Assembly (NCBI GenBank): GCA_037951105.1
Contig: JBAMJV010008090.1
Span: forward strand, 81,716 to 145,715
Direction: 5' to 3'
DNA: 64,000 nucleotides
DNA from: Echinarachnius parma
Taxonomy: Eukaryota; Echinodermata; Echinoidea; Clypeasteroida; Echinarachniidae
Translations under genes and position numbers: made by a program
The notes under the pieces: model-generated
What the model was told of the DNA's origin: nothing
Database searches by the model: none
Seen by the model: only the letters and a program-made list of their open reading frames with translations
Shown here: positions 10,267-64,000 of the stretch, piece by piece
Position numbering within the stretch: position 1 is the stretch's first letter
How the letters are laid out: each line of letters begins with the position of its first letter

Positions 10267-10268
10267 TT

Positions 10269-10446
10269 AGGTGGGCTGTACATCATACAGACCACCTCAT
10301 AATTTCGTTAGAATTGCCTTTATTAGGTGGGCTGTACATCATACAGACCACCTCATAATTTCGTTAGAATTGCCTTTATTATTATTAGGTGGGCTGTACA
10401 TCATACAGACCACCTCATAATTTCGTTAGAATTGCCTTTATTATTA
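10269..10446 (+). repeat. Three tandem 5' modules of unit 1
   Basis: Each module is 56 bp plus a variable TTA tail. AGGTGG-G-CTGT and ACAG-A-CCACCT can pair as a hairpin over an ACATCAT loop. CATAATTTCGTTAGAATTGC and a TTTATT run follow. The same AGGTGGGCT is also the exact complement of AGCCCACCT near the unit's 3' end. Confidence 0.9.
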
Positions 10447-10590
10447 TTCTTTATTTTTCTTATTTCCAATCACTTTTTTGTTAGCAAGATAACTTGAAAA
10501 TGGCTCAATCAAGTGCCTTGAAATTTGGCACACATATAGATAGGCATATGGACAAAGCAAAATAAGGTTTTGAACCCTGACCTTGACTGA

Positions 10591-10614
10591 TGACGTCATC
10601 TAGGCGCCATTTTG
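10591..10614 (+). promoter_or_regulatory. CRE-like TGACGTCA plus YY1-like GCCATTTTG (unit 1 exemplar)
   Basis: TGACGTCA at 10591-10598 is the full CREB/ATF palindrome. GCCATTTTG at 10606-10614 is the complement of CAAAATGGC, a YY1-type core. The pair recurs in the standard units. A second TGACGTCA lies at 11236-11243. Binding is not shown; this is motif matching only. Confidence 0.4.
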
Positions 10615-10728: not shown

Positions 10729-10880
10729 CGCGCGCGCATGCGTACGTGCGCGCGTCAGCGCGCGCGCAAAATTTTAAAATGTTCAAAATCGTCGCAAATT
10801 CATTTTGGATACGTTTTAGGCCATTTTAAGCATTTTACGAAAAAACGCGCACACGCGCATGCGCGCGCGTTTTCGCGCGT
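10729..10880. other. Alternating CG blocks (unit 1 exemplar)
   Basis: Two purine-pyrimidine alternating tracts (10729-10767 and 10846-10880, mostly CG with CA/TG steps) sit about 80 bp apart in otherwise AT-rich DNA. Such tracts favour Z-DNA and hairpins. They occur in every unit and also cause the Arg/Ala/His-rich spurious reading frame. Confidence 0.6.
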
Positions 10881-11640: not shown

Positions 11641-13013
11641 TTAGGTGGGCTGTACATCATACAGACCACCTCATAATTTCGTTAGAATTGCCTTTATTAG
11701 GTGGGCTGTACATCATACAGACCACCTCATAATTTCGTTAGAATTGCCTTTATTTATTTATTAGGTGGGCTGTACATCATACAGACCACCTCATAATTTC
11801 GTTAGAATTGCCTTTATTATTCTTTATTTTTCTTATTTCCAATCACTTTTTTGTTACCACGATAACTTGAAAATGGCTCAATCAAGTGCCTTGAAATTTG
11901 GCACACATATATATAGGCATATGGACAAAGCAAAATAAGGTTTTGAACCCTGACCTTGACTGATGACGTCATCTAGGCGCCATTTTGTAAAATTTTCTGA
12001 ATATCTTCTCATGATCATATCTTCATAACGAAAAGTTGTTTCTCATTCATATTTATCATGATAAGGGTCAATATCCGTCCGGTCAATTTCAGGTCAAAAA
12101 ACGCGCGCGCATGCGTACGTGCGCGCGTCAGCGCGCGCGCAAAATTTTAAAATGTTCAAAATCGTCGCAAATTCATTTTGGATACGTTTTAGGCCATTTT
12201 AAGCATTTTACGAAAAAACGCGCACACGCGCATGCGCGCGCGTTTTCGCGCGTACTGGCATTTTGCAACATAGAATCGCCGAATTTTCTCTGTTATCATA
12301 TTTAGCCCATCTTTCCAAGCATTTTGATACCTTGTTCACCTTTTTCTGACTAGTAAAAACGCAATGAGCTTCCGTTCAAGAAACATGTCCGTGCGCGCGA
12401 GCTCTTGTAATACATAGCATATATGGGCAAAAACATGCCTATACAAAATTCATTGTAACTCTTCAGAATGGATGGGAACTCCCAAGTTTTTTTTCATATT
12501 TGGATAGATTATGAGTCGGAGATATGATTTCATGTCTCATTTGACCCTCAATTAACTCATGGCGTCATCATAATGGCCTCCGAACTCAAAATTTCAATTT
12601 GCATATTATGACGTCAGCATATTTTTGGAAAATTTATTGTATCTCTGTAAATGTTGATCGATTTTCTTCCAAATTTTGATATGTTCTAGCTGAGACAATT
12701 CTCTACAAATGTGATAATCACGATTTTTCATTTTGACAAAGGCATCATGGCGTATTTTTGCGATTTAAGGAGGCATGTCATTTTTTAACATTTTGCGTGT
12801 ATTCTCTATGGGACATGACTTTTTTTCAAAACTGGATTCTACATTCCCGTCTTTCGCGACCAATATCTTCTTCGTTTTAGCTTCGTTTACGCTGAACTTC
12901 GAGTATGTTGTAGCTGAGACAATAAGCTATCTCAAATGAGCCCTTGATTATGTCTTTAATTTTAGTTCGACCAGCCCACCTATACTTGTTCTAAACAAGT
13001 ATTACAATTCTAG
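11641..13013 (+). mobile_element. Array unit 2 (A/C mosaic)
   Basis: 1373 bp, three 5' modules (11643, 11699, 11763). The core starts with the TTACCACGATAAC variant. The 3' half switches from type A (AAATTTATTG) to type C wording (AAATGTTGATCG, TCTAGCTGAG), suggesting recombination. GATAAGGG replaces GATCAAGG near 12060. Confidence 0.85.
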
Positions 13014-29405: not shown

Positions 29406-30602
29406 TTATTCTTTATTTTTCTTATTTCCAATCACTTTTTTGTTAGCAAGATAACTTGAAAATGGCTCAATCAAGTGCCTTGAAATTTGGCACACATATA
29501 TATAGGCATATGGACAAAGCAAAATAAGGTTTTGAACCCTGACCTTTACTGATGACGTCATCTAGGCGCCATTTTGTAAAATTTTCTGAATATCTTCTCA
29601 TGATCATATCTTCATAACGAAAAGTTGTTTCTCATTCATATTTATCATGATCAAGGTCAATATCCGTCCGGTCAATTTCAGGTCAAAAAACGCGCGCGCA
29701 TGCGTACGTGCGCGCGTCAGCGCGCGCGCAAAATTTTAAAATGTTCAAAATCGTCGCAAATTCATTTTGGATACGTTTTAGGCCATTTTAAGCATTTTAC
29801 GAAAAAACGCGCACACGCGCATGCGCGCGCGTTTTCGCGCGTACTGGCATTTTGCAACATAGAATCGCCGAATTTTCTCTGTTATCATATTTAGCCCATC
29901 TTTCCAAGCATTTTGATACCTTGTTCACCTTTTTCTGACTAGTAAAAACGCAATGAGCTTCCGTTCAAGAAACATGTCCGTGCGCGCGAGCTCTTGTAAT
30001 ACATAGCATATATGGGCAAAAACATGCCTATACAAAATTCATTGTAACTCTTCAGAATGGATGGGAACTCCCAAGTTTTTTTTCATATTTGGATAGATTA
30101 TGAGTCGGAGATATGATTTCATGTCTCATTTGACCCTCAATTAACTCATGGCGTCATCATAATGGCCTCCGAACTCAAAATTTCAATTTGCATATTATGA
30201 CGTCAGCATATTTTTGGAAAATTGATTGTATCTCTGTAAATGTTGATCGATTTTCTTCCAAATTTTGATATGTTCTAGCTGAGACAATTCTCTACAAATG
30301 TAATGATCACGATTTTTCATTTTGACAAAGGAATCATGGCGTATTTTTGCGATTTAAGGAGGCATGTCATTTTTTAACATTTTGCGTGTATTCTCTATTG
30401 GACATGACTTTTTTTCAAAACTGGATTCTACATTCCCGTCTTTCGCGACCAATATCTTCATCGTTTTAGCTTCGTTTACGCTGAACTTCGAGTATGTTGT
30501 AGCTGAGACAATAAGCTATCTCAAATGAGCCCTTGATTATGTCTTTAATTTTAGTTCGACCAGCCCACCTATACTTGTTCTAAACAAGTATTACAATTCT
30601 AG
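29406..30602 (+). mobile_element. Array unit 16 (type C)
   Basis: 1197 bp, no module. Markers: CTGACCTTTACTG, GTAATGATCACG, GGAATCATGG, TCTATTGGACATG and TCTTCATCG. The same set recurs in units 24, 31 and 36. Confidence 0.88.
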
Positions 30603-31793
30603 TTTATTTTTCTTATTTCCAATCACTTTTTTGTTAGCAAGATAACTTGAAAATGGCTCAATCAAGTGCCTTGAAATTTGGCACACATATATATAGGCAT
30701 ATGGACAAAGCAAAATAAGGTTTTGAACCCTGACCTTGACTGATGACGTCATCTAGGCGCCATTTTGTAAAATTTTCTGAATATCTTCTCATGATCATAT
30801 CTTCATAACGAAAAGTTGTTTCTCATTCATATTTATCATGATCAAGGTCAATATCCGTCCGGTCAATTTCAGGTCAAAAAACGCGCGCGCATGCGTACGT
30901 GCGCGCGTCAGCGCGCGCGCAAAATTTTAAAATGTTCAAAATCGTCGCAAATTCATTTTGGATACGTTTTAGGCCATTTTAAGCATTTTACGAAAAAACG
31001 CGCACACGCGCATGCGCGCGCGTTTTCGCGCGTACTGGCATTTTGCAACATAGAATCGCCGAATTTTCTCTGTTATCATATTTAGCCCATCTTTCCAAGC
31101 ATTTTGATACCTTGTTCACCTTTTTCTGACTAGTAAAAACGCAATGAGCTTCCGTTCAAGAAACATGTCCGTGCGCGCGAGCTCTTGTAATACATAGCAT
31201 ATATGGGCAAAAACATGCCTATACAAAATTCATTGTAACTCTTCAGAATGGATGGGAACTCCCAAGTTTTTTTTCATATTTGGATAGATTATGAGTCGGA
31301 GATATGATTTCATGTCTCATTTGACCCTCAATTAACTCATGGCGTCATCATAACGGCCTTCCAACTCAAAATTTCAATTAACATATTATGACGTCAGCAT
31401 ATTTTTGGAAAATTGATTGTATCTCTGTAAATGTTGATCGATTTTCTTCCAAATTTTGATATGTTCTAGCTCAGACAATTTTCTACAAATGTATTAACCA
31501 CGTTTTTTCATTTTGACAAAGGCATCATGGCGTATTTTTGCGATTTAAGGAGGCATGTCATTTTTTAACATTTTGCGTGTATTCTCTATGGGACATGACT
31601 TTTTTTCAAAACTGGATTCTACATTCCCGTCTTTCGCGACCAATATCTTCTTCGTTTTAGCTTCGTTTACGCTGAACTTCGAGTATGTTGTAGCTGAGAC
31701 AATAAGCTATCTCAAATGATCCCTTGATTATGTCTTTAATTTTACTTCGACCAGCCCACCTATACTTGTTCTAAACAAGTATTACAATTCTAG
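30603..31793 (+). mobile_element. Array unit 17 (type B)
   Basis: 1191 bp, no module. Markers: AACGGCCTTCCAACTC, AATTAACATATT, CACGTTTTTTC, ATGATCCCTTG and TTTTACTTCG. Partner of unit 25. Confidence 0.88.
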
Positions 31794-35528: not shown

Positions 35529-35556
35529 AGGTTATACATATATATATGTATAACCT
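35529..35556. repeat. Perfect 28-bp palindrome at the second-family 5' end
   Basis: AGGTTATACATATA followed directly by its complement TATATGTATAACCT. It occupies the position of the AGGTGG...CCACCT hairpin in the standard units. The outer GTATAACCT reappears at 37982-37990 near the 3' end. Confidence 0.92.
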
Positions 35557-43377: not shown

Positions 43378-44568
43378 TTTATTTTTCTTATTTCCAATCA
43401 CTTTTTTGTTAGCAAGATAACTTGAAAATGGCTCAATCAAGTGCCTTGAAATTTGGCACACATATATATAGGCATATGGACAAAGCAAAATAAGGTTTTG
43501 AACCCTGACCTTGACTGATGACGTCATCTAGGCGCCATTTTGTAAAATTTTCTGAATATCTTCTCATGATCATATCTTCATAACGAAAAGTTGTTTCTCA
43601 TTCATATTTATCATGATCAAGGTCAATATCCGTCCGGTCAATTTCAGGTCAAAAAACGCGCGCGCATGCGTACGTGCGCGCGTCAGCGCGCGCGCAAAAT
43701 TTTAAAATGTTCAAAATCGTCGCAAATTCATTTTGGATACGTTTTAGGCCATTTTAAGCATTTTACGAAAAAACGCGCACACGCGCATGCGCGCGCGTTT
43801 TCGCGCGTACTGGCATTTTGCAACATAGAATCGCCGAATTTTCTCTGTTATCATATTTAGCCCATCTTTCCAAGCATTTTGATACCTTGTTCACCTTTTT
43901 CTGACTAGTAAAAACGCAATGAGCTTCCGTTCAAGAAACATGTCCGTGCGCGCGAGCTCTTGTAATACATAGCATATATGGGCAAAAACATGCCTATACA
44001 AAATTCATTGTAACTCTTCAGAATGGATGGGAACTCCCAAGTTTTTTTTCATATTTGGATAGATTATGAGTCGGAGATATGATTTCATGTCTCATTTGAC
44101 CCTCAATTAACTCATGGCGTCATCATAACGGCCTTCCAACTCAAAATTTCAATTAACATATTATGACGTCAGCATATTTTTGGAAAATTGATTGTATCTC
44201 TGTAAATGTTGATCGATTTTCTTCCAAATTTTGATATGTTCTAGCTCAGACAATTTTCTACAAATGTATTAACCACGTTTTTTCATTTTGACAAAGGCAT
44301 CATGGCGTATTTTTGCGATTTAAGGAGGCATGTCATTTTTTAACATTTTGCGTGTATTCTCTATGGGACATGACTTTTTTTCAAAACTGGATTCTACATT
44401 CCCGTCTTTCGCGACCAATATCTTCTTCGTTTTAGCTTCGTTTACGCTGAACTTCGAGTATGTTGTAGCTGAGACAATAAGCTATCTCAAATGATCCCTT
44501 GATTATGTCTTTAATTTTACTTCGACCAGCCCACCTATACTTGTTCTAAACAAGTATTACAATTCTAG
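43378..44568 (+). mobile_element. Array unit 25 (type B)
   Basis: 1191 bp. Same private markers as unit 17, including AATTAACATATT and ATGATCCCTTG. Confidence 0.87.
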
Positions 44569-45943
44569 TTATTATTAGGTGGGCTGTACATCATACAGAC
44601 CACCTCATAATTTCGTTAGAATTGCCTTTATTTATTAGGTGGGCTGTACATCATACAGACCACCTCATAATTTCGTTAGAATTGCCTTTATTATTAGGTG
44701 GGCTGTACATCATACAGACCACCTCATAATTTCGTTAGAATTGCCTTTATTCTTTATTTTTCTTATTTCCAATCACTTTTTTGTGAGCAAGATAACTTGA
44801 AAATGGCTCAATCAAGTGCCTTGAAATTTGGCACACATATATATAGGCATATGGACAAAGCAAAATAAGGTTTTGAACCCTGACCTTGACTGATGACGTC
44901 ATCTAGGCGCCATTTTGTAAAATTTTCTGAATATCTTCTCATGATCATATCTTCATAACGAAAAGTTGTTTCTCATTCATATTTATCATGATCAAGGTCA
45001 ATATCCGTCCGGTCAATTTCAGGTCAAAAAACGCGCGCGCATGCGTACGTGCGCGCGTCAGCGCGCGCGCAAAATTTTAAAATGTTCAAAATCGTCGCAA
45101 ATTCATTTTGGATACGTTTTAGGCCATTTTAAGCATTTTACGAAAAAACGCGCACACGCGCATGCGCGCGCGTTTTCGCGCGTACTGGCATTTTGCAACA
45201 TAGAATCGCCGAATTTTCTCTGTTATCATATTTAGCCCATCTTTCCAAGCATTTTGATACCTTGTTCACCTTTTTCTGACTAGTAAAAACGCAATGAGCT
45301 TCCGTTCAAGAAACATGTCCGTGCGCGCGAGCTCTTGTAATACATAGCATATATGGGCAAAAACATGCCTATACAAAATTCATTGCAACTCTTCAGAATG
45401 GATGGGAACTCCCAAGTTTTTTTTCATATTTGGATAGATTATGAGTCGGAGATATGATTTCATGTCTCATTTGACCCTCAATTAACTCATGGCGTCATCA
45501 TAATGGCCTCCGAACTCAAAATTTCAATTTGCATATTATGACGTCAGCATATTTTTGGAAAATTGATTGTATCTCTGTAAATGTTGATCGATTTTCTTCC
45601 AAATTTTGATATGTTCTAGCTGAGACAATTCTTCACAAATGTGATGATCACGATTTTTCATTTTGACAAAGGCATCATGGCGTATTTTTGCGATTTAAGG
45701 AGGCATGTCATTTTTTAACATTTTGCGTGTATTCTCTATGGGACATGACTTTTTTTCAAAACTGGATTCTACATTCCCGTCTTTCGCGACCAATATCTTC
45801 TTCGTTTTAGCTTCGTTTACGCTGAACTTCGAGTATGTTGTAGCTGAGACAATAAGCTATCTCAAATGAGCCCTTGATTATGTCTTTAATTTTAGTTCGA
45901 CCAGCCCACCTATACTTGTTCTAAACAAGTATTACAATTCTAG
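44569..45943 (+). mobile_element. Array unit 26 (type C)
   Basis: 1375 bp, three modules. As unit 18 but with core start TGTGAGCAAG, as in unit 12: a local conversion patch or a difference between duplicates. Confidence 0.87.
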
Positions 45944-47149
45944 TTATTATTATTATTCTTTATTTTTCTTATTTCCAATCACTTTTTTGTTACCAAGATA
46001 ACTTGAAAATGGCTCAATCAAGTGCCTTGAAATTTGGCACACATATATATAGGCATATGGACAAAGCAAAATAAGGTTTTGAACCCTGACCTTGACTGAT
46101 GACGTCATCTAGGCGCCATTTTGTAAAATTTTCTGAATATCTTCTCATGATCATATCTTCATAACGAAAAGTTGTTTCTCATTCATATTTATCATGATCA
46201 AGGTCAATATCCGTCCGGTCAATTTCAGGTCAAAAAACGCGCGCGCATGCGTACGTGCGCGCGTCAACGCGCGCGCAAAATTTTAAAATGTTCAAAATCG
46301 TCTCAAATTCATTTTGGATACGTTTTAGGCCATTTTAAGCATTTTACGAAAAAACGCGCACACGCGCATGCGCGCGCGTTTTCGCGCGTACTGGCATTTT
46401 GCAACATAGAATCGCCGAATTTTCTCTGTTATCATATTTAGCCCATCTTTCCAAGCATTTTGATACCTTGTTCACCTTTTTCTGACTAGTAAAAACGCAA
46501 TGAGCTTCCGTTCAAGAAACATGTCCGTGCGCGCGAGCTCTTGTAATACATAGCATATATGGGCAAAAACATGCCTATACAAAATTCATTGTAACTCTTC
46601 AGAATGGATGGGAACTCCCAAGTTTTTTTTCATATTTGGATAGATTATGAGTCGGAGATATGATTTCATGTCTCATTTGACCCTCAATTAACTCATGGCG
46701 TCATCATAATGGCCTCCGAACTCAAAATTTCAATTTGCATATTATGACGTCAGCATATTTTTGGAAAATTTATTGTATCTCTGTAAATATTGATCGATTT
46801 TCTTCCAAATTTTGATATGTTCTATCTGAGACAATTCTCTACAAATGTGATGATCACGATTTTTCATTTTGACAAAGGTATCATGGCGTATTTTTGCGAT
46901 TTAAGGAGGTATGTCATTTTTTCACATTTTGCGTGTATTCTCTATGGGACATGACTTTTTTTCAAAACTGGATTCTACATTCCCGTCTTTCGCGACCAAT
47001 ATCTTCTTCGTTTTAGCTTCGTTTACGCTGAACTTCGAGTATGTTGTAGCTGAGACAATAAGCTATCTCAAATGAGCCCTTGATTATGTCTTTAATTTTA
47101 GTTCGACCAGCCCACCTATACTTGTTCTAAACAAGTATTACAATTCTAG
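45944..47149 (+). mobile_element. Array unit 27 (type A)
   Basis: 1206 bp. As unit 19 (GTCAACGCGC), but with CGTCTCAAATTC and an intact TGACGTCA where unit 19 is mutated. Confidence 0.87.
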
Positions 47150-48301
47150 TTATTATTATTATTCTTTATTTTTCTTATTTCCAATCACTTTTTTGTTAGC
47201 AAGATAACTTGAAAATGGCTCAATCAAGTGCCTTGAAATTTGGCACACATATATATAGGCATATGGACAAAGCAAAATAAGGTTTTGAACCCTGACCTTG
47301 ACTGATGACGTCATCTAGGCGCCATTTTGTAAAATTTTCTGAATATCTTCTCATGATCATATCTTCATAACGAAAAGTTGTTTCTCATTCATATTTATCA
47401 TGATCAAGGTCAATATCCGTCCGGTCAATTTCAGGTCAAAAAACGCGCGCGCATGCGTACGTGCGCGCGTCAGCGCGCGCGCAAAATTTTAAAATGTTCA
47501 AAATCGTCGCAAATTCATTTTGGATACGTTTTAGGCCATTTTAAGCATTTTACGAAAAAACGCGCACACGCGCATGCGCGCGCGTTTTCGCGCGTACTGG
47601 CATTTTGCAACATAGAATCGCCGAATTTTCTCTCTTATCATATTTAGCCCATCTTTCCAAGCATTTTGATACCTTGTTCACCTTTTTCTGACTAGTAAAA
47701 ACGCAATGAGCTTCCGTTCAAGAAACATGGCCGTGCGCGCGAGCTCTTGTAATACATAGCATATATGGGCAAAAACATGCCTATACAAAATTCATTGTAA
47801 CTCTTCAGAATGGATGGGAACTCCCAAGTTTTTTTTCATATTTGGATAGATTATGAGTCGGAGATATGATTTCATGTCTCATTTGACCCTCAATTAACTC
47901 ATGGCGTCATCATAATGGCCTCCGAACTCAAAATTTCAATTTGCATATTATGACGTCAGCATATTTTTGGAAAATTGATTGTATCTCTGTAAATATTGAT
48001 CGATTTTCTTCCAAATTTTGATATGTTCTATCTGAGACAATTCTCTACAAATGTGATGATCACGATTTTTCATTTTGACAAAGGCATCATGGCGTATTTT
48101 TGCGATTTAAGGAGGCATGTCATTTTTTAACATTTTGCGTGTATTCTCTATGGGACATGACTTTTTTTCAAAACTGGATTCTACATTCCCGTCTTTCGCG
48201 ACCAATATCTTCTTCGTTTTAGCTTCGTTTACGCTGAACTTCGAGTATGTTGTAGCTGAGACAATAAGCTATCTCAAATGAGCCCTTGATTATGTCTTTA
48301 A

Positions 48302-50798
48302 TTAGGTTATACATATATATATGTATAACCTTATTGATTTCGTCAAGATTTTTATTATTTATTCTTCTTCTTCTTCTTCCTAATTTTGTGCGTCGCATAT
48401 CTCAAGATCACATAAATCAATTGTCATGAATCTTCACATGATGATAGATCATGATCTAACTTAGAACTGGTAACCTTTTCAGTGACGTCAGGACGCCATT
48501 TTGTCAAATTTTAATAATCATTTTATCTCAGTTATGAAATATCAATTTCAATTCAAATTTCGTATCAATATTAATCAGGTCAATAGTCATCTTTTAAGCT
48601 CATGTGCGTGCAATTACACTCGGAGACGCGCGCGTACGCGTCCGTCAATTAATTTTTTTTTTTTTAAATGCTCAAAACCCCAACCCGAGTAATTTACTAT
48701 ATGTTTCAGACAATTTTAAGCGTTTCAAAAAATTCCGCGCGTGCGCGTCGGCGCGCGCGTATTTGCGCGCGTAACGCGAATGAATAAGAAAATTATCGTT
48801 TTTTCACATGTTTTGGATTCCTTATGGATCCCTCAACACACCCTATCAATTTGAGTCATTGTTGACTCATAATAACGGAGTACGCGCGCGTCAAAGTCAA
48901 AATTACGCGCGCACGCAAAATGGCAAAACATGGTAAAAACATCCTTTTTTTATTCGGCCATAACTTTTTAAAAAGTCCACAAACATCCAATTTTCTTTTA
49001 ATATTCGGATAGATTATGAGTTGTAGATACGAATTCATACCTCATCTATGCCGAGTAAATGTTATAAAGTCATCGTATTGACGGTTAAAGTTGAAAATGC
49101 GAATTTTACTCAATTTCAATCAATGTTGAAATCGACCATAGTGTACTTTTGACCATATCTCACTTATTCTCCATCAATGTACTCCCAAATTTTGATATAT
49201 CGTAGCTGATGTCCTGCTCTATTCGCAATCTTTTCACAACAATTCGTTATGTTATCTGGATCCTGATGAATTGTTTGATTGTAAATAAGAGTCCAAATCT
49301 GATAAAAATTGAGGTTTAGCCAAAACGTATGTTATCGACATATAACTGCTGAAGAAATTATGCTATCAATTTAAGATTTCGCATGTAGATAGGGATTTGC
49401 AACCCCATCATTTCATAAGTTAACACCAAATCGCGAAAATGCATATTTCATTGTCATATTTACCCTCAAAGGTCAAATAAATCAAGCATGAATACTCAAT
49501 AACCACGTACGCCATGGACGTGAAATTCAGCACACATGTAGGGTATAATGAAAGGAACATTTCATAAGATAAGATCGGATTATGAAAATGGCGTTCAGGA
49601 TATGTAAATTAGGTTCATATGTCAAAATAACTCACTGTTCCGTATTTAACTAACCATTAATTATTTGCACGTTCAAGAATCTGTGTAGACTTTTAGAACA
49701 ATTTAGACTCGAGGTCCATTTAATAACATAACACTCACGCACGAAAACGCTCCGTTCATCATGTATGCGTGTGTCAAACGGCCATGAAAAGCCAACATTG
49801 GACATACAAAGTAGATAAAATAGTACCAAATGCTTTATTTATTTAAGGGTATTAACATGTCTCACTTACCATCACTTCCATCAAGCATATATTAACTACT
49901 AGCTGACTCACAAGAGCGCTACTCCTAATACTGGTTACCAATGCATAGTCCTCAAGATCACAAATGCCAGGCTTGAAATATAACTTTTATATAGCAGTTA
50001 TTGTGAGAAGTTACTAAGCAAATGTCATGTTGCCGTTCAGGAAAGAAGATGAGAATTATCACTTTAATGCTGGCCCAGATAAATCATTAGTCATTGAAAA
50101 TCATATTATAATATCCGAAGAAGTCAGTCGAAACAATTTTCAGAGCTAAAACATTAAAATACATTAGTTGTTTTCAATTTACAATTATCCTGCAATGCTC
50201 CATGACTTTTCTTGCAATAGCGCCATCTATCGGCGAATAATTCGGTCAATTGTCTTGTCTCAAGGATTCCAGAAATGCATGACTTGCACTTAATAATCAA
50301 CAAAAGCTGTTATTCACCAGATTTATCCAGACTTTCGGCTAATTATGAAAGATAGCATTACCTTCATGCCAAATCCAGCATAAAACTACAGATTATAACA
50401 ACTTAAGTAGTGTTTATGATTCATTTTATGAAAAAAGAATGACGTCATCATTCCTCCGCGTTTTGGAGAAAAAAGTCTAGACGGCTGAATATCGTACATT
50501 GACAAGTCCAATCACTGATATATATTCCCAGATTTTCCATTTCTCACAAGAGATGTTATGTTGGTCTCGTGGAACAAGTTGGGACGCAAGATCCAAGGGG
50601 CGTGGGTTCGAATCCAAGGCAATGGTTTTTTTTACTTTCTTTTTTCTTCTTTTTTTCTTTTTATTAAGGGGGGGGGGGGGGGTATCTGCTATTATTTCTA
50701 TGATGATTGAGTAGTTATTTTTTGGAATCATCCTTTTTATCATAATAAATCGATATGTATAACCTTAATTCGTCAAACGTGACGAATTCAACATCTAG
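48302..50798 (+). mobile_element. Second-family Helitron-like element, copy 2
   Basis: 2497 bp, 12,775 bp downstream of copy 1. The G15 run is the same length. A- and B-box-like motifs lie at 50570-50582 and 50605-50615. Confidence 0.8.
50555..50633 (+). promoter_or_regulatory. tRNA-like internal Pol III promoter, copy 2
   Basis: Identical motifs to copy 1, carried along by the higher-order duplication. Not an independent acquisition. Confidence 0.4.
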
Positions 50799-52322
50799 TT
50801 AGGTGGGCTGTACATCATACAGACCACCTCATAATTTCGTTAGAATTGCCTTTATTATTATTATTAGGTGGGCTGTACATCATACAGACCACCTCATAAT
50901 TTCGTTAGAATTGCCTTTATTTATTTATTTATTAGGTGGGCTGTACATCATACAGACCACCTCATAATTTCGTTAGAATTGCCTTTATTATTATTAGGTG
51001 GGCTGTACATCATACAGACCACCTCATAATTTCGTTAGAATTGCCTTTATTAGGTGGGCTGTACATCATACAGACCACCTCATAATTTCGTTAGAATTGC
51101 CTTTATTTATTTATTTATTTATTTATTATTCTTTATTTTTCTTATTTCCAATCACTTTTTTGTTAGCAAGATAACTTGAAAATGGCTCAATCAAGTGCCT
51201 TGAAATTTGGCACACATATATATAGGCATATGGACAAAGCAAAATAAGGTTTTGAACCCTGACCTTGACTGATGACGTCATCTAGGCGCCATTTTGTAAA
51301 ATTTTCTGAATATCTTCTCATGATCATATCTTCATAACGAAAAGTTGTTTCTCATTCATATTTATCATGATCAAGGTCAATATCCGTCCGGTCAATTTCA
51401 GGTCAAAAAACGCGCGCGCATGCGTACGTGCGCGCGTCAGCGCGCGCGCAAAATTTTAAAATGTTCAAAATCGTCGCAAATTCATTTTGGATACGTTTTA
51501 GGCCATTTTAAGCATTTTACGAAAAAACGCGCACACGCGCATGCGCGCGCGTTTTCGCGCGTACTGGCATTTTGCAACATAGAATCGCCGAATTTTCTCT
51601 GTTATCATATTTAGCCCATCTTTCCAAGCATTTTGATACCTTGTTCACCTTTTTCTGACTAGTAAAAACGCAATGAGCTTCCGTTCAAGAAACATGTCCG
51701 TGCGCGCGAGCTCTTGTAATACATAGCATATATGGGCAAAAACATGCCTATACAAAATTCATTGTAACTCTTCAGAATGGATGGGAACTCCCAAGTTTTT
51801 TTTCATATTTGGATAGATTATGAGTCGGAGATATGATTTCATGTCTCATTTGACCCTCAATTAACTCATGGCGTCATCATAATGGCCTCCGAACTCAAAA
51901 TTTCAATTTGCATATTATGACGTCAGCATATTTTTGGAAAATTTATTGTATCTCTGTAAATATTGATCGATTTTCTTCCAAATTTTGATATGTTCTATCT
52001 GAGACAATTCTCTACAAATGTGATGATCACGATTTTTCATTTTGACAAAGGCATCATGGCGTATTTTTGCGATTTAAGGAGGCATGTCATTTTTTCACAT
52101 TTTCCGTGTATTCTCTATGGGACATGACTTTTTTTCAAAACTGGATACTACATTCCCATCTTTCGCGACCAATATCTTCTTCGTTTTAGCTTCGTTTACG
52201 CTGAACTTCGAGTATGTTGTAGCTGAGACAATAAGCTATCTCAAATGAGCCCTTGATTATGTCTTTAATTTTAGTTCGACCAGCCCACCTATACTTGTTC
52301 TAAACAAGTATTACAATTCTAG
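50799..52322 (+). mobile_element. Array unit 29 (21/22 fusion, five modules)
   Basis: 1524 bp. The five-module 5' part matches unit 21 without its indels. The 3' part has the unit 22 markers CATTTTCCGTG and GGATACTAC. This is the product expected from unequal crossover deleting one unit. Confidence 0.87.
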
Positions 52323-53747
52323 TTTATTATTATTATTATTTAGGTGGGCTGTACATCATACAGACCACCTCATAATTTCGTTAGAATTGCCTTTATTATT
52401 AGGTGGGCTGTACATCATACAGACCACCTCATAATTTCGTTAGAATTGCCTTTATTTATTTATTATTATTATTAGGTGGGCTGTACATCATACAGACCAC
52501 CTCATAATTTCGTTAGAATTGCCTTTATTTATTTATTTATTTATTTATTATTATTCTTTATTTTTCTTATTTCCAATCACTTTTTTGTTACCACGATAAC
52601 TTGAAAATGGCTCAATCAAGTGCCTTGAAATTTGGCACACATATATATAGGCATATGGACAAAGCAAAATAAGGTTTTGAACCCTGACCTTGACTGATGA
52701 CGTCATCTAGGCGCCATTTTGTAAAATTTTCTGAATATCTTCTCATGATCATATCTTCATAACGAAAAGTTGTTTCTCATTCATATTTATCATGATCAAG
52801 GTCAATATCCGTCCGGTCAATTTCAGGTCTAAAAACGCGCGCGCATGCGTACGTGCGCGCGTCAGCGCGCGCGCAAAATTTTAAAATGTTCAAAATCGTC
52901 GCAAATTCATTTTGGATACGTTTTAGGCCATTTTAAGCATTTTACGAAAAAACGCGCACACGCGCATGCGCGCGCGTTTTCGCGCGTACTGGCATTTTGC
53001 AACATAGAATCGCCGAATTTTCTCTGTTATCATATTTAGCCCATCTTTCCAAGCATTTTGATACCTTGTTCACCTTTTTCTGACTAGTAAAAACGCAATG
53101 AGCTTCCGTTCAAGAAACATGTCCGTGCGCGCGAGCTCTTGTAATACATAGCATATATGGGCAAAAACATGCCTATACAAAATTCATTGTAACTCTTCAG
53201 AATGGATGGGAACTCCCAAGTTTTTTTTCATATTTGGATAGATTATGAGTCGGAGATATGATTTCATGTCTCATTTGACCCTCAATTAACTCATGGCGTC
53301 ATCATAATGGCCTCCGAACTCAAAATTTCAATTTGCATATTATGACGTCAGCATATTTTTGGAAAATTTATTGTATCTCTGTAAATATTGATCGATTTTC
53401 TTCCAAATTTTGATATGTTCTATCTGAGACAATTCTCTACAAATGTGATGATCACGATTTTTCATTTTGACAAAGGCATCATGGCGTATTTTTGCGATTT
53501 AAGGAGGTATGTCATTTTTTCACATTTTGCGTGTATTCTCTATGGGACATGACTTTTTTTCAAAACTGGATTCTACATTCCCGTCTTTCGCGACCAATAT
53601 CTTCTTCGTTTTAGCTTCGTTTACGCTGAACTTCGAGTATGTTGTAGCTGAGACAATAAGCTATCTCAAATGAGCCCTTGATTATGTCTTTAATTTTAGT
53701 TCGACCAGCCCACCTATACTTGTTCTAAACAAGTATTACAATTCTAG
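52323..53747 (+). mobile_element. Array unit 30 (type A)
   Basis: 1425 bp, three modules, CAGGTCTAAAAACG marker. Partner of unit 23. Confidence 0.87.
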
Positions 53748-54944
53748 TTATTCTTTATTTTTCTTATTTCCAATCACTTTTTTGTTAGCAAGATAACTTG
53801 AAAATGGCTCAATCAAGTGCCTTGAAATTTGGCACACATATATATAGGCATATGGACAAAGCAAAATAAGGTTTTGAACCCTGACCTTTACTGATGACGT
53901 CATCTAGGCGCCATTTTGTAAAATTTTCTGAATATCTTCTCATGATCATATCTTCATAACGAAAAGTTGTTTCTCATTCATATTTATCATGATCAAGGTC
54001 AATATCCGTCCGGTCAATTTCAGGTCAAAAAACGCGCGCGCATGCGTACGTGCGCGCGTCAGCGCGCGCGCAAAATTTTAAAATGTTCAAAATCGTCGCA
54101 AATTCATTTTGGATACGTTTTAGGCCATTTTAAGCATTTTACGAAAAAACGCGCACACGCGCATGCGCGCGCGTTTTCGCGCGTACTGGCATTTTGCAAC
54201 ATAGAATCGCCGAATTTTCTCTGTTATCATATTTAGCCCATCTTTCCAAGCATTTTGATACCTTGTTCACCTTTTTCTGACTAGTAAAAACGCAATGAGC
54301 TTCCGTTCAAGAAACATGTCCGTGCGCGCGAGCTCTTGTAATACATAGCATATATGGGCAAAAACATGCCTATACAAAATTCATTGTAACTCTTCAGAAT
54401 GGATGGGAACTCCCAAGTTTTTTTTCATATTTGGATAGATTATGAGTCGGAGATATGATTTCATGTCTCATTTGACCCTCAATTAACTCATGGCGTCATC
54501 ATAATGGCCTCCGAACTCAAAATTTCAATTTGCATATTATGACGTCAGCATATTTTTGGAAAATTGATTGTATCTCTGTAAATGTTGATCGATTTTCTTC
54601 CAAATTTTGATATGTTCTAGCTGAGACAATTCTCTACAAATGTAATGATCACGATTTTTCATTTTGACAAAGGAATCATGGCGTATTTTTGCGATTTAAG
54701 GAGGCATGTCATTTTTTAACATTTTGCGTGTATTCTCTATTGGACATGACTTTTTTTCAAAACTGGATTCTACATTCCCGTCTTTCGCGACCAATATCTT
54801 CATCGTTTTAGCTTCGTTTACGCTGAACTTCGAGTATGTTGTAGCTGAGACAATAAGCTATCTCAAATGAGCCCTTGATTATGTCTTTAATTTTAGTTCG
54901 ACCAGCCCACCTATACTTGTTCTAAACAAGTATTACAATTCTAG
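53748..54944 (+). mobile_element. Array unit 31 (type C)
   Basis: 1197 bp. Carries all unit 16 markers and TTTCTCATTCA, so it is closer to unit 16 than to unit 24 at that site. Confidence 0.87.
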
Positions 54945-56135
54945 TTTATTTTTCTTATTTCCAATCACTTTTTTGTTAGCAAGATAACTTGAAAATGGCT
55001 CAATCAAGTGCCTTGAAATTTGGCACACATATATATAGGCATATGGACAAAGCAAAATAAGGTTTTGAACCCTGACCTTGACTGATGACGTCATCTAGGC
55101 GCCATTTTGTAAAATTTTCTGAATATCTTCTCATGATCATATCTTCATAACGAAAAGTTGTTTCTCATTCATATTTATCATGATCAAGGTCAATATCCGT
55201 CCGGTCAATTTCAGGTCAAAAAACGCGCGCGCATGCGTACGTGCGCGCGTCAGCGCGCGCGCAAAATTTTAAAATGTTCAAAATCGTCGCAAATTCATTT
55301 TGGATACGTTTTAGGCCATTTTAAGCATTTTACGAAAAAACGCGCACACGCGCATGCGCGCGCGTTTTCGCGCGTACTGGCATTTTGCAACATAGAATCG
55401 CCGAATTTTCTCTGTTATCATATTTAGCCCATCTTTCCAAGCATTTTGATACCTTGTTCACCTTTTTCTGACTAGTAAAAACGCAATGAGCTTCCGTTCA
55501 AGAAACATGTCCGTGCGCGCGAGCTCTTGTAATACATAGCATATATGGGCAAAAACATGCCTATACAAAATTCATTGTAACTCTTCAGAATGGATGGGAA
55601 CTCCCAAGTTTTTTTTCATATTTGGATAGATTATGAGTCGGAGATATGATTTCATGTCTCATTTGACCCTCAATTAACTCATGGCGTCATCATAATGGCC
55701 TCCGAACTCAAAATTTCAATTTGCATATTATGACGTCAGCATATTTTTGGAAAATTTATTGTATCTCTGTAAATATTGATCGATTTTCTTCCAAATTTTG
55801 ATATGTTCTATCTGAGACAATTCTCTACAAATGTGATGATCACGATTTTTCATTTTGACAAAGGCATCATGGCGTATTTTTGCGATTTAAGGAGGTATGT
55901 CATTTTTTCACATTTTGCGTGTATTCTCTATGGGACATGACTTTTTTTCAAAACTGGATTCTACATTCCCGTCTTTCGCGACCAATATCTTCTTCGTTTT
56001 AGCTTCGTTTACGCTGAACTTCGAGTATGTTGTAGCTGAGACAATAAGCTATCTCAAATGATCCCTTGATTATGTCTTTAATTTTACTTCGACCAGCCCA
56101 CCTATACTTGTTCTAAACAAGTATTACAATTCTAG
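54945..56135 (+). mobile_element. Array unit 32 (B ends, A middle)
   Basis: 1191 bp. Its end keeps the unit 17/25 markers ATGATCCCTTG and TTTTACTTCG. The middle reads as type A (AATGGCCTCCG, AAATATTGATCG, TCTATCTGAG, GGAGGTATG). An internal conversion patch of a few hundred bp is the simplest explanation. Confidence 0.87.
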
Positions 56136-57412
56136 TTATTATTAGGTGGGCTGTACATCATACAGACCACCTCATAATTTCGTTAGAATTGCCTTTATTT
56201 ATTAGGTGGGCTGTACATCATACAGACCACCTCATAATTTCGTTAGAATTGCCTTTATTATTATTATTATTATTCTTTATTTTTCTTATTTCCAATCACT
56301 TTTTTGTTAGCAAGATAACTTGAAAATGGCTCAATCAAGTGCCTTGAAATTTGGCACACATATATATAGGCATATGGACAAAGCAAAATAAGGTTTTGAA
56401 CCCTGACCTTGACTGATGACGTCATCTAGGCGCCATTTTGTAAAATTTTCTGAATATCTTCTCATGATCATATCTTCATAACGAAAAGTTGTTTCTCATT
56501 CATATTTATCATGATCAAGGTCAATATCCGTCCGGTCAATTTCAGGTCAAAAAACGCGCGCGCATGCGTACGTGCGCGCGTCAGCGCGCGCGCAAAATTT
56601 TAAAATGTTCAAAATCGTCGCAAATTCATTTTGGATACGTTTTAGGCCATTTTAAGCATTTTACGAAAAAACGCGCACACGCGCATGCGCGCGCGTTTTC
56701 GCGCGTACTGGCATTTTGCAACATAGAATCGCCGAATTTTCTCTCTTATCATATTTAGCCCATCTTTCCAAGCATTTTGATACCTTGTTCACCTTTTTCT
56801 GACTAGTAAAAACGCAATGAGCTTCCGTTCAAGAAACATGGCCGTGCGCGCGAGCTCTTGTAATACATAGCATATATGGGCAAAAACATGCCTATACAAA
56901 ATTCATTGTAACTCTTCAGAATGGATGGGAACTCCCAAGTTTTTTTTCATATTTGGATAGATTATGAGTCGGAGATATGATTTCATGTCTCATTTGACCC
57001 TCAATTAACTCATGGCGTCATCATAATGGCCTCCGAACTCAAAATTTCAATTTGCATATTATGACGTCAGCATATTTTTGGAAAATTGATTGTATCTCTG
57101 TAAATATTGATCGATTTTCTTCCAAATTTTGATATGTTCTATCTGAGACAATTCTCTACAAATGTGATGATCACGATTTTTCATTTTGACAAAGGCATCA
57201 TGGCGTATTTTTGCGATTTAAGGAGGCATGTCATTTTTTAACATTTTGCGTGTATTCTCTATGGGACATGACTTTTTTTCAAAACTGGATTCTACATTCC
57301 CGTCTTTCGCGACCAATATCTTCTTCGTTTTAGCTTCGTTTACGCTGAACTTCGAGTATGTTGTAGCTGAGACAATAAGCTATCTCAAATGAGCCCTTGA
57401 TTATGTCTTTAA

Positions 57413-59910
57413 TTAGGTTATACATATATATATGTATAACCTTATTGATTTCGTCAAGATTTTTATTATTTATTCTTCTTCTTCTTCTTCCTAATTTTGT
57501 GCGTCGCATATCTCAAGATCACATAAATCAATTGTCATGAATCTTCACATGATGATAGATCATGATCTAACTTAGAACTGGTAACCTTTTCAGTGACGTC
57601 AGGACGCCATTTTGTCAAATTTTAATAATCATTTTATCTCAGTTATGAAATATCAATTTCAATTCAAATTTCGTATCAATATTAATCAGGTCAATAGTCA
57701 TCTTTTAAGCTCATGTGCGTGCAATTACACTCGGAGACGCGCGCGTACGCGTCCGTCAATTAATTTTTTTTTTTTTAAATGCTCAAAACCCCAACCCGAG
57801 TAATTTACTATATGTTTCAGACAATTTTAAGCGTTTCAAAAAATTCCGCGCGTGCGCGTCGGCGCGCGCGTATTTGCGCGCGTAACGCGAATGAATAAGA
57901 AAATTATCGTTTTTTCACATGTTTTGGATTCCTTATGGATCCCTCAACACACCCTATCAATTTGAGTCATTGTTGACTCATAATAACGGAGTACGCGCGC
58001 GTCAAAGTCAAAATTACGCGCGCACGCAAAATGGCAAAACATGGTAAAAACATCCTTTTTTTATTCGGCCATAACTTTTTAAAAAGTCCACAAACATCCA
58101 ATTTTCTTTTAATATTCGGATAGATTATGAGTTGTAGATACGAATTCATACCTCATCTATGCCGAGTAAATGTTATAAAGTCATCGTATTGACGGTTAAA
58201 GTTGAAAATGCGAATTTTACTCAATTTCAATCAATGTTGAAATCGACCATAGTGTACTTTTGACCATATCTCACTTATTCTCCATCAATGTACTCCCAAA
58301 TTTTGATATATCGTAGCTGATGTCCTGCTCTATTCGCAATCTTTTCACAACAATTCGTTATGTTATCTGGATCCTGATGAATTGTTTGATTGTAAATAAG
58401 AGTCCAAATCTGATAAAAATTGAGGTTTAGCCAAAACGTATGTTATCGACATATAACTGCTGAAGAAATTATGCTATCAATTTAAGATTTCGCATGTAGA
58501 TAGGGATTTGCAACCCCATCATTTCATAAGTTAACACCAAATCGCGAAAATGCATATTTCATTGTCATATTTACCCTCAAAGGTCAAATAAATCAAGCAT
58601 GAATACTCAATAACCACGTACGCCATGGACGTGAAATTCAGCACACATGTAGGGTATAATGAAAGGAACATTTCATAAGATAAGATCGGATTATGAAAAT
58701 GGCGTTCAGGATATGTAAATTAGGTTCATATGTCAAAATAACTCACTGTTCCGTATTTAACTAACCATTAATTATTTGCACGTTCAAGAATCTGTGTAGA
58801 CTTTTAGAACAATTTAGACTCGAGGTCCATTTAATAACATAACACTCACGCACGAAAACGCTCCGTTCATCATGTATGCGTGTGTCAAACGGCCATGAAA
58901 AGCCAACATTGGACATACAAAGTAGATAAAATAGTACCAAATGCTTTATTTATTTAAGGGTATTAACATGTCTCACTTACCATCACTTCCATCAAGCATA
59001 TATTAACTACTAGCTGACTCACAAGAGCGCTACTCCTAATACTGGTTACCAATGCATAGTCCTCAAGATCACAAATGCCAGGCTTGAAATATAACTTTTA
59101 TATAGCAGTTATTGTGAGAAGTTACTAAGCAAATGTCATGTTGCCGTTCAGGAAAGAAGATGAGAATTATCACTTTAATGCTGGCCCAGATAAATCATTA
59201 GTCATTGAAAATCATATTATAATATCCGAAGAAGTCAGTCGAAACAATTTTCAGAGCTAAAACATTAAAATACATTAGTTGTTTTCAATTTACAATTATC
59301 CTGCAATGCTCCATGACTTTTCTTGCAATAGCGCCATCTATCGGCGAATAATTCGGTCAATTGTCTTGTCTCAAGGATTCCAGAAATGCATGACTTGCAC
59401 TTAATAATCAACAAAAGCTGTTATTCACCAGATTTATCCAGACTTTCGGCTAATTATGAAAGATAGCATTACCTTCATGCCAAATCCAGCATAAAACTAC
59501 AGATTATAACAACTTAAGTAGTGTTTATGATTCATTTTATGAAAAAAGAATGACGTCATCATTCCTCCGCGTTTTGGAGAAAAAAGTCTAGACGGCTGAA
59601 TATCGTACATTGACAAGTCCAATCACTGATATATATTCCCAGATTTTCCATTTCTCACAAGAGATGTTATGTTGGTCTCGTGGAACAAGTTGGGACGCAA
59701 GATCCAAGGGGCGTGGGTTCGAATCCAAGGCAATGGTTTTTTTTACTTTCTTTTTTCTTCTTTTTTTCTTTTTATTAAGGGGGGGGGGGGGGGGTATCTG
59801 CTATTATTTCTATGATGATTGAGTAGTTATTTTTTGGAATCATCCTTTTTATCATAATAAATCGATATGTATAACCTTAATTCGTCAAACGTGACGAATT
59901 CAACATCTAG
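57413..59910 (+). mobile_element. Second-family Helitron-like element, copy 3
   Basis: 2498 bp. One extra G in the G-run (16 instead of 15) is the only difference noticed. A- and B-box-like motifs at 59681-59693 and 59716-59726. Confidence 0.8.
59666..59744 (+). promoter_or_regulatory. tRNA-like internal Pol III promoter, copy 3
   Basis: Same motifs and spacing as in the other two copies. Confidence 0.4.
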
Positions 59911-61451
59911 TTAGGTGGGCTGTACATCATACAGACCACCTCATAATTTCGTTAGAATTGCCTTTATTATTATTATTAGGTGGGCTGTACATCATACAGA
60001 CCACCTCATAATTTCGTTAGAATTGCCTTTATTTATTTATTTATTAGGTGGGCTGTACATCATACAGACCACCTCATAATTTCGTTAGAATTGCCTTTAT
60101 TATTATTAGGTGGGCTGTACATCATACAGACCACCTCATAATTTCGTTAGAATTGCCTTTATTAGGTGGGCTGTACATCATACAGACCACCTCATAATTT
60201 CGTTAGAATTGCCTTTATTTATTTATTTATTTATTTATTATTCTTTATTTTTCTTATTTCCAATCACTTTTTTGTTAGCAAGATAACTTGAAAATGGCTC
60301 AATCAAGTGCCTTGAAATTTGGCACACATATATATAGGCATATGGACAAAGCAAAATAAGGTTTTGAACCCTGACCTTGACTGATGACGTCATCTAGGCG
60401 CCATTTTGTAAAATTTTCTGAATATCTTCTCATGATCATATCTTCATAACGAAAAGTTGTTTCTCATTCATATTTATCATGATCAAGGTCAATATCCGTC
60501 CGGTCAATTTCAGGTCAAAAAACGCGCGCGCATGCGTACGTGCGCGCGTCAGCGCGCGCGCAAAATTTTAAAATGTTCAAAATCGTCGCAAATTCATTTT
60601 GGATACGTTTTAGGCCATTTTAAGCATTTTACGAAAAAACGCGCACACGCGCATGCGCGCGCGTTTTCGCGCGTACTGGCATTTTGCAACATAGAATCGC
60701 CGAATTTTCTCTGTTATCATATTTAGCCCATCTTTCCAAGCATTTTGATACCTTGTTCACCTTTTTCTGACTAGTAAAAACGCAATGAGCTTCCGTTCAA
60801 GAAACATGTCCGTGCGCGCGAGCTCTTGTAATACATAGCATATATGGGCAAAAACATGCCTATACAAAATTCATTGTAACTCTTCAGAATGGATGGGAAC
60901 TCCCAAGTTTTTTTTCATATTTGGATAGATTATGAGTCGGAGATATGATTTCATGTCTCATTTGACCCTCAATTAACTCATGGCGTCATCATAATGGCCT
61001 CCGAACTCAAAATTTCAATTTGCATATTATGACGTCAGCATATTTTTGGAAAATTTATTGTATCTCTGTAAATATTGATCGATTTTCTTCCAAATTTTGA
61101 TATGTTCTATCTGAGACAATTCTCTACAAATGTGATGATCACGATTTTTCATTTTGACAAAGGCATCATGGCGTATTTTTGCGATTTAAGGAGGCATGTC
61201 ATTTTTTTTTCACATTTTCCGTGTATTCTCTATGGGACCATGACTTTTTTTTCAAAACTGGATACTACATTTCCCCATCTTTCGCGACCAATAATCTTCT
61301 TCGTTTTAGCTTCGTTTTACGCTGGAAACTTCGAGTATGTTTGTAGCTGAGGACAATAAGCTATCTCAAATGAGCCCTTGATTATGTCTTTAATTTTAGT
61401 TTCGACCAGCCCACCTATACCTTGTTTCTAAACAAGTATTACAAATTCTAG
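59911..61451 (+). mobile_element. Array unit 34 (five modules)
   Basis: 1541 bp, equivalent to unit 29. Clean until about 61205, then 17 extra bases accumulate in the last ~250 bp. Confidence 0.83.
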
Positions 61452-62975
61452 TTTATTATTAATTATTATTTAGGTGGGCTGTACATCATACAGGACCACC
61501 TCATAATTTCGTTAGAAATTGCCTTTATTATTAGGTGGGCCTGTTACATCATAACAGACCACCTCATAATTTCGTTAGAATTGCCTTTTATTTATTTATT
61601 ATTATTTATTAGGTGGGCCTGTACATCATACAGACCCACCTCATAATTTCGTTTAGAATTGCCTTTATTTTATTTATTTTATTTATTTATTATTATTCCT
61701 TTATTTTTTCTTATTTCCAATCACTTTTTTTGTTACCACGATTAACTTGAAAATGGCTCAATCAAGTGCCTTGAAAATTTGGCACACATATATATAGGCA
61801 TATGGGACAAAGCAAAAATAAGGTTTTGAAACCCTGGACCTTGACTGATGACGTCAATCTAGGCGCCATTTTGTAAAAATTTTCTGAATATCTTCCTCAT
61901 GATTCATATCTTCATAACGAAAAGTTGTTTTCTCATTCATATTTATTCATGATCAAGGTCAATATCCGTCCGGTCAATTTTTCAGGTCTAAAAAAACGCG
62001 CGCGCATGCGTACGTTGGCGCGCGTCAGCGCGCGCGCAAAAATTTTAAAATGTTCAAAAATCGTCCGCAAATTTCCATTTTTGGATACGTTTTTAGGCCA
62101 TTTTTAAGCATTTTTACGAAAAAAAACGCGCACACGCGCATGCGCGCGCGTTTTTCGGCGCGTACTGGCATTTTTGCAACATAGAATCCGCCCGAATTTT
62201 CCTCTGTTTTATCATATTTAGGCCCATCTTTCCAAGCATTTTTGATACCTTGTTCACCTTTTTTCTGACTAGTAAAAAACGCAATGAGCTTTCCGTTCAA
62301 GAAACATGTCCGTGCGCGCGAGCTCTTGTAAATACATAGCATATATTGGGCAAAAAACAATGCCTATACAAAAATTCCATTGTAACTCTTCAGAATGGAT
62401 TGGGAAACTCCCAAGTTTTTTTTTTCATATTTGGATAGATTATGAGTCGGAGATATGATTTTCATGTCTCATTTTGACCCTCAATTAACTCATGGCGTTC
62501 CATCAATAATGGCCTCCGAAACTCAAAAATTTCAATTTGCATATTATGACGTCAGCATATTTTTTGGAAAATTTATTGTATCTCTGTAAAATATTGATCG
62601 ATTTTTCTTCCAAAATTTTTGATATGTTTCTATCTGAGGACAATTCTCTACAAATGTGATGATCACGATTTTTTCATTTTGGACAAAGGCATCATGGCGT
62701 ATTTTTGCGATTTTAAGGAGGTATGTCCATTTTTTTCACATTTTGCGTGTATTCTCTATGGGACATGACTTTTTTTTCAAAAACTGGGAATTCTACATTC
62801 CCGTCTTTCGCGACCAATATCTTCTTTCGTTTTAGCTTCGTTTTACGCTGAACTTCGAGTATGTTGTAGCTGAGACAATAAGCTATCTCAAATGAGGCCC
62901 TTGATTATGTCTTTAATTTTAGTTTCGACCAAGCCCAACCTATACTTGTTCTAAACCAAGTAATTACAATTCTAG
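61452..62975 (+). mobile_element. Array unit 35 (indel-rich)
   Basis: 1524 bp as given, equivalent to unit 30 (three modules, CAGGTCTAAAAA marker kept). Confidence 0.8.
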
Positions 62976-64000
62976 TTATTCTTTATTTTTCTTATTTCCA
63001 ATCACTTTTTTTGTTAGCAAGATAACTTGAAAAATGGCTCAATCAAGTGCCTTGAAAATTTGGCCCAACACATATATATAGGCATATGGACAAAGCAAAA
63101 TAAGGTTTTGAAACCCTGACCTTTACTGATGGACGTCAATCTAGGCGCCCATTTTTGTAAAATTTTTCTGAATATCTTTCTCATGATCATAATCTTCATA
63201 AACGAAAAGGTTGTTTTTCTCATTCATATTTATCATGATCAAGGTCAATATCCGTCCGGTCAATTTTCAGGTCAAAAAAAACGCGCGGCGCATGCGTACG
63301 TTGCGCGGCGTCAGCGCGCGCGCAAAAATTTTAAAATGTTCAAAAATCGTCGCAAATTCATTTTGGATACGTTTTTTAGGCCATTTTAAGCATTTTTACG
63401 AAAAAAAACGCGCACACGCGCATTGCGCGCGCGCGTTTTTTCGCGCGTACTGGCATTTTTGCAACCATAGAATCGCCGAATTTTTCTCTGTTTATCATAT
63501 TTAGCCCATCTTTCCAAGCATTTTGATACCTTGTTCACCTTTTTCTGACTAGTAAAAAAACGCAATGAGCTTCCGTTCAAGAAACATGTCCGTGCGCGCC
63601 GAGCTCTTGTAATACATAGCATAATATGGGCAAAAAAACATGCCTATACAAAAATTCATTGTAAACTCTTCAGAATGGGATGGGAACTCCCCAAGTTTTT
63701 TTTTCATATTTTGGATAGATTATGAGTCGGGAGATATGATTTTCATGGTCTTCATTTGACCCTCAATTAACTCATGGCGTCCATCATAATGGCCTTCCGA
63801 ACTCAAAATTTCAATTTGCATATTATGACGTCAGCATATTTTTTGGAAAATTGATTGTATCTCTGTAAATGTTGATCGATTTTTCTTCCAAATTTTTGAT
63901 ATGTTTCTAGCTGAGACAAATTCTCTACAAATGTAATGATCACGAATTTTTCATTTTTGACAAAGGAATCATGGGCGTATATTTTTGCGATTTTAAGGAA
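62976..64000 (+). mobile_element. Array unit 36 (partial, indel-rich)
   Basis: Start of a fourth higher-order copy: CTTTACTGATG, GTAATGATCACG and GGAATCATGG identify it as the unit 16/24/31 type. Cut by the window end. Confidence 0.8.

Follow-up and report, generated by a model that had tools for sequence, protein, structure and literature searches.

A tandem array of HINE-like rolling-circle elements next to SRCR exons in Echinarachnius parma

The window, that is, the whole stretch of DNA analysed here, comprises 64,000 nt of the Echinarachnius parma contig JBAMJV010008090.1 (assembly GCA_037951105.1, positions 81,716-145,715, forward strand). Its left part carries two SRCR exons of 309 nt on the + strand, at 8455-8763 and 9529-9837, both complete and of phase 1-1, the first encoding a complete domain (Pfam SRCR, E-values of 1.8e-31 and 1.7e-31, respectively; exon bounds were placed by eye from AG/GT). 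The second exon is followed by a GT at 9838-9839, in phase 1 when read by eye, which agrees with the phase 1 splice donor that an earlier note on this DNA had placed at 9838. A tandem array starts 429 bp after this donor, on the same strand as the SRCR exons. It is plausible that the array lies inside an intron of the SRCR gene; no further SRCR exon is visible because the array occupies all the rest of this DNA.

The left flank also contains a decayed SRCR exon at 6132-6341 (+), which is 77% identical at the DNA level to part of 9529-9837 and is interrupted by stops in each of the three forward frames. Remnants of a non-LTR retrotransposon are found at 1475-2251 (-), with matches to RVT_1 (E 1.6e-06) and DUF6451 (E 1.3e-05) that both fall just under the curated cut-offs. 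Two inverted copies of a repeat of about 280 bp (70% identity) occupy 2494-2773 and 9966-10220, the latter stopping 46 bp before the array, and the segment 2562-2626 is nearly palindromic. A further diverged repeat family has direct and inverted copies at 3517-3875, 5387-5672 and 7461-7535.

The array (10267-64000, +) begins with TTAGG at 10267 and runs on past the window end. It consists of 36 units (U01 to U36) of a non-coding element referred to here as HINE-A, or A, whose bodies of about 1190 bp (~1.19 kb) span 10451-64000 and are all on the + strand. This corresponds to the same-orientation array of more than 53 kb described in the earlier note. Thirty-four bodies are 98.1-100% identical to the reference unit, which is one of them, and the last two are 92-93% identical to it, the difference consisting mostly of small indels. 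The statement that every unit ends in a hairpin and CTAG|T and is joined directly to the next is correct for 32 of the 36 units, in which the A-type 3' end (subterminal repeat, hairpin and CTAG) is followed by TT each time. It does not hold for U20, U28 and U33, where the body is cut 52 bp early, at the same base, and continues into a second element, B, whose own hairpin and CTAG abut the next unit, nor for U36, which lacks a 3' end as the window stops inside it. At each of the 35 joins between consecutive units the letters are CTAG|TT, with an A end on the left in 32 cases and a B end in 3.

The ends were also recovered by a blind scan, in which the pattern was known only as a stem of at least 8, followed by 6-15 nt and CTAGT. 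It returned 33 ends on the + strand (30 A ends and 3 B ends), which are copies of two end types and not independent finds, and none on the - strand. Two A ends within the noisy final part were overlooked. In 20 shuffled controls (mononucleotides, 200-bp blocks), the mean was 0.05 ends for both strands and the maximum 1.

The segment 60245-64000 contains many small indels relative to the other units and resembles unpolished long-read sequence: U35 shows 78 gap openings or 85 gap columns (in two alignments), and U34 and U36 are indel-rich too. U21 (38358-39547) has a few small indels of the same appearance. The sequence polish thus appears to be poor over the last ~4 kb, which makes the true length of the array and the number of its blocks uncertain, and it is apparently lower in U21 as well.

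A complete example of HINE-A is U02 (11641-13013, +), which has three 5' modules, the body and the 3' end. Its 5' terminus (11641-11671) consists of TT and a palindromic subterminal inverted repeat (subTIR) that is predicted to fold as a hairpin (AGGTGG.CTGTA/TACAG.CCACCT; DNA fold of -11.3 kcal/mol, z -5.8). Its 3' terminus (12972-13013), of 42 bp, starts with the subTIR CAGCCCACCT, continues into a 9-bp hairpin whose loop is 3 nt long and closes with 11 nt, of which the last four are CTAG. The A subTIRs, AGGTGGGCTG and CAGCCCACCT, measure about 11 bp; the 5' copy, which is palindromic and folds, lies 2 nt from the 5' end, and the 3' copy lies 32 bp from the end by the inner distance (42 bp by the far side). 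The whole element is ~1.2-1.5 kb long and no coding capacity was seen in it. Long GC-rich tracts, largely of alternating purines and pyrimidines, are present at about 10729-10767 and 10846-10879 and recur in the other A units that were read; similar tracts occur in B at about 35850-36000. By rule of thumb, we take these tracts of A and B to be Z-DNA-prone.

Each CTAG is followed by a variable 5' zone, made of a TTA/TTTA microsatellite and 0-5 copies of a module of ~50 bp that opens with AGGTGGGCTG or AGGTGGGCTGTACATCATACAGACCACCT. The first 10 bases of the module are exactly complementary to the 3' subterminal repeat. There are 49 modules in total, distributed over 16 of the 36 units (1-5 in each unit that has them), and the 20 units without a module begin within the TTA/TTTA microsatellite. 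Among U01-U23, before most of the block duplication, the module is present in 10 of 23 units.

HINE-B is about 2.5 kb long and is present in three copies on the + strand, at 35527-38023, 48302-50798 (100% identical to the first over 2494 bp) and 57413-59910 (99.96% identical to the first). It has its own 5' hairpin, 3' subTIR, 9-bp hairpin and CTAG. The B subTIRs, AGGTTATACAT and ATGTATAACCT, are about 13 bp long and the 5' copy folds as a hairpin. The A bodies that are cut 52 bp ahead of their 3' end at the start of B are those of U20 (34391-35528), U28 (47166-48303) and U33 (56277-57414), all on the + strand, and the terminal CTAG of B directly adjoins the TTAGGTGGG of the following A unit. 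The 52-bp tail of A is absent after all three copies of B, and none of the 35 joins carries it by itself. Two TCTAGTT repeats, read from the letters, lie at the A-B site. The loss of the 52 bp fits the use of the B terminus as the end of a composite element; it also fits an insertion of B followed by a deletion or slippage between the TCTAGTT repeats, without a transposase.

The alignment of A with B is colinear over ~0.9 kb, with 59% identity and an E-value of 1e-30, which is probably too good, because an inverted A-B match reached E 4e-9 in the same search; the E-value is probably inflated by composition. Based on the colinearity and the common plan of the ends, A and B seem to belong to one wider family, B looking like a diverged homologue of A. 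Around 37779-37850, B resembles the A and B boxes of a tRNA promoter, with runs of T after them, which is perhaps, we presume, a captured tRNA-derived sequence. ARAGORN detected no tRNA in the window, including in this tRNA-like stretch of B.

The anatomy of the units gives good support to a rolling-circle transposon origin. The earlier note had called the unit a Helitron-like element; the rolling-circle part of this assignment stands, while the type looks like a HINE (a non-autonomous, Helentron-associated element) and not a canonical Helitron. Indeed, the array and B both start with TTAGG and not with the TC of canonical Helitrons, whereas the 3' end conforms to CTRR preceded by a hairpin at ~11 bp (here CTAG, with the hairpin 10-11 nt before it). 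The earlier note had already remarked that the 5' end (TTAGGT) is at odds with canonical Helitrons and the 3' end in accord with them. Assigning the element to the HINEs resolves this misfit, as a HINE-like element had been measured against a canonical Helitron.

In the parts of Thomas et al. (2014) that bear on this question, HINEs, or DINE-1-like elements, are described as lacking coding capacity and as carrying palindromic subTIRs at both sides, 2-4 nt in from the 5' terminus and 38-60 bp before the 3' one; a palindrome near the 3' end, tandem repeats or microsatellites and T-rich targets with a varying number of T complete the description (PMC4067079). Both A and B have a 5' hairpin 2 nt from the end, a complementary 3' subTIR, and a 3' palindrome whose 9-bp stems end 11 nt (A) or 10 nt (B) before the terminus, with a final CTAG. 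The subTIRs are thus near both ends in A and B, as in the HINEs described there, with a palindromic 5' copy 2 nt in, which 20 of the 36 A units lack. A also has a microsatellite and repeats, and no coding sequence was seen. The mite HINE families have subTIRs of 12-15 bp located 38-60 bp from the 3' end (PMC4067079, same parts); compared to them, the subTIRs are ~11 bp in A and ~13 bp in B, and the 3' copy of A, at 32 bp from the end, is slightly under this range.

In the left flank of the array, as in that of B, ...TAA precedes TTAGG, which can be read as TAAT|TAGG or TAA|TTAGG; the right flank of the array is outside the window, and behind B the last 52 bp of A, which would give a right flank, are missing. 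The two left flanks are compatible with a target T|T, with a target A|T if the element starts with TTAGG, or with TNAT|T. Canonical Helitrons were rejected on the basis of the 5' end, which is not TC, and of the plan with subTIRs and a 5' hairpin, the target not being decisive. A DDE transposon origin is not favoured by the anatomy, and it keeps some probability because the right flank of the array lies outside the window, so that a target duplication is not visible.

Ten of the 17 listed open reading frames of A and B were scanned, and they contain no Rep, PIF1-type helicase or endonuclease domain, and no Pfam family above cut-off that would reveal a captured gene. Three weak sub-threshold Pfam matches of one B frame (best E 0.008) were taken as chance. 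No Rfam family reached the gathering threshold in the 64-kb window. The best matches to A and B in the 10 kb to the left of the array (E 0.11 and 0.21) were also taken as chance. Exact patterns from A and B have no match in collections of viral contigs and prokaryote genomes, where an animal transposon is not expected. Within the DNA covered here, neither a solo copy nor a full empty site nor an autonomous partner was seen, which counts against the scenario preferred below.

The right half of the array is organized in higher-order blocks on the + strand: U16-U23 (29406-42180, 8 units and B), U24-U30 (42181-53747, 7 units and B) and U31-U35 (53748-62975, 5 units and B). Blocks 1 and 2 align without a gap over their first 8952 bp, with 6 mismatches (99.93% identity). 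The three blocks differ by whole units; a unit present in block 1 is lacking from block 2. The 5' zone of U33, in block 3, is a chimera that opens like that of U26 and closes like that of U28, the product of a crossover or a deletion inside the microsatellite that took out about two units. U01-U15 are not repeated as blocks. Growth of the array by unequal exchange is supported by the blocks and by this crossover within the 5' microsatellite.

In the four-gamete test on U01-U19, 25 of 231 site pairs fail, a sign of exchange or conversion between units; the separate events may be few, because 20 of these 25 pairs draw on the same two adjacent sites. Growth by one unit at a time is not supported, because adjacent units resemble each other no more than random pairs do (lag 1, 1.10% versus 1.00% for U01-U20, p_low 0.94), and none of the three unit sets gave support for local expansion by single units in the lag test. 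The lone low value, at lag 8 for U01-U34 (p 0.015, 11 lags, uncorrected), is probably due to the blocks. Tests of shared unit order gave p-values of 0.056 for U01-15, 0.18 for U01-19 and 0.08 for U01-33, the set that includes the blocks. Exchange in steps of several units is therefore supported for the right half, and the left half shows only some mosaicism.

Elements of the Helentron type are thought to copy by rolling-circle replication. Starting from the units, termini, joins, element B, blocks and single microsatellite crossover that are directly observed, we infer the action of a Rep protein and the following order of events, a scenario that we consider rather probable. HINE-A, which is non-autonomous and non-coding, would have landed in a T-rich site next to the SRCR exons, and a Helentron Rep/helicase from another locus would have acted in trans. 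Head-to-tail copies would have been made by joining the 3' CTAG to the 5' TT through a circle, followed by replication past the 3' hairpin, or else by repeated insertion beside an existing end. Out-of-register exchange between units would then have enlarged and shuffled the array, at least one of the breakpoints falling within the TTA/TTTA microsatellite of a 5' zone. The related HINE-B would have entered one unit 52 bp ahead of its 3' end, the B terminus replacing that of A, and the A-B composite would have been carried along in three higher-order blocks. Circle joining, read-through and repeated insertion at T|T all yield the same letters at the first junctions, and two or three routes can lead to them, read-through past the 3' terminator being one. 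The loss of the terminator from a circle does not look like the cause of this array, because the terminator is kept almost everywhere and it is the 5' repeat that is often missing; the missing 5' repeats may be later deletions in the microsatellite.

The array might instead have been built by repeated, independent insertions of HINEs beside an existing 3' end, without any multimeric rolling-circle product, and then by unequal exchange, an account that we regard as possible yet doubtful. An insertion at T|T gives CTAG-T-TAGG, which is the observed junction, neighbouring units are no more alike than distant ones, the presence of B beside A is natural if different elements use one site, and distantly related Helitrons that directly adjoin each other are reported in bat and maize in the relevant part of PMC4067079. 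However, the 20 of 36 units without the 5' subTIR would have to have lost it afterwards to count as intact insertions, and an A inserted behind B should leave the old 52-bp tail of A, which none of the 35 joins shows. An equally doubtful proposal is that a single chance dimer of HINEs, of whatever origin, was expanded as a plain satellite by unequal crossover only. Recombination alone is indeed all that the blocks, the chimeric 5' zone and the mosaic units require, but the first precise CTAG|TT dimer is left unexplained and, as an expansion step, this process is already part of the scenario given above.

An assembly artefact, in which the blocks and the total length would partly result from joined haplotypes or mis-joined repeats, is improbable. 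It would agree with the indel-bearing, probably unpolished sequence of U21 and U34-U36 and with the 99.93% identity of blocks 1 and 2 over 8952 bp. Against it, the blocks differ by whole units, the crossover in the microsatellite is clean, and U01-U15 do not belong to repeated blocks. Less probable still, and put forward as a speculation, is an in-place, 3'-anchored rolling-circle amplification, in which the Helentron Rep would cut and join repeatedly at CTAG, would accept every TT in the 5' microsatellite as a left end and could use a foreign 3' end such as that of B.

The comparison of the array and its elements with known systems draws on parts of the cited texts. In PMC12628747, which relays Xiong et al. 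(2016), the tandem Helitron arrays of plants are head-to-tail and contain several to several hundred units; in many of them several 5' ends go with just one 3' end, and a model is given in which the terminator was lost from the circle. Relative to many of these plant arrays the polarity is opposite here, as 32 of 36 units keep the 3' end and 20 of 36 are without the 5' repeat. Tandem Helitrons are also described in Myotis lucifugus, Bombyx mori, Drosophila, rice and maize, and those of the bat and the silkworm are ascribed to a bypass of termination (PMC4067079, PMC5148889); what these cases have in common with the present array is that the elements are in tandem. HINEs are known as interspersed elements, and a pattern like that of tandem Helitrons "might be seen" with Helentrons according to PMC4067079, whereas whole elements are in tandem here.

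The oyster Cg_HINE has a subTIR, an inverted repeat, a microsatellite and a 3' palindrome, and a link with satellite DNA (PMC7492417, PMC8268682, in part); in Cg_HINE a short central repeat is in tandem, whereas here the monomer is the whole element and the 3' ends are kept. The Helitron2-type FoHeli elements of Fusarium have asymmetric inverted repeats and provide joined ends as evidence for circles, and FoHeli1/2 have hairpins at both ends and the target TNAT|T (PMC5148889, in part). This target fits both left flanks seen here (TAAT|TAGG), two flanks being too few for a target claim, and A and B differ from FoHeli, which is coding and has other terminal sequences. Helraiser forms precise circles that join the 3' CTAG to the 5' TC (PMC5876387, in part). 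No whole-HINE array with kept 3' ends was found in the portions of the literature on Helitron and HINE arrays covered here, in which the plant, bat and silkworm arrays are represented by later accounts.

Pile-ups of elements are already known, and what sets this one apart is that nearly all the 3' ends are kept and that the tail of a second element is swapped in. Arrays of tandem Helitrons, which often include 3'-truncated copies, are taken in the literature as footprints of rolling-circle replication. An array of whole HINEs that retain their 3' ends, with a composite unit that closes with the terminus of another family, offers junctions at the sequence level to separate circle joining, repeated insertion and unequal exchange. 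The array also illustrates how a dispersed element can become a complex satellite. If the CTAG-anchored action of Rep were true, it would mean a satellite run by a transposon inside a gene.
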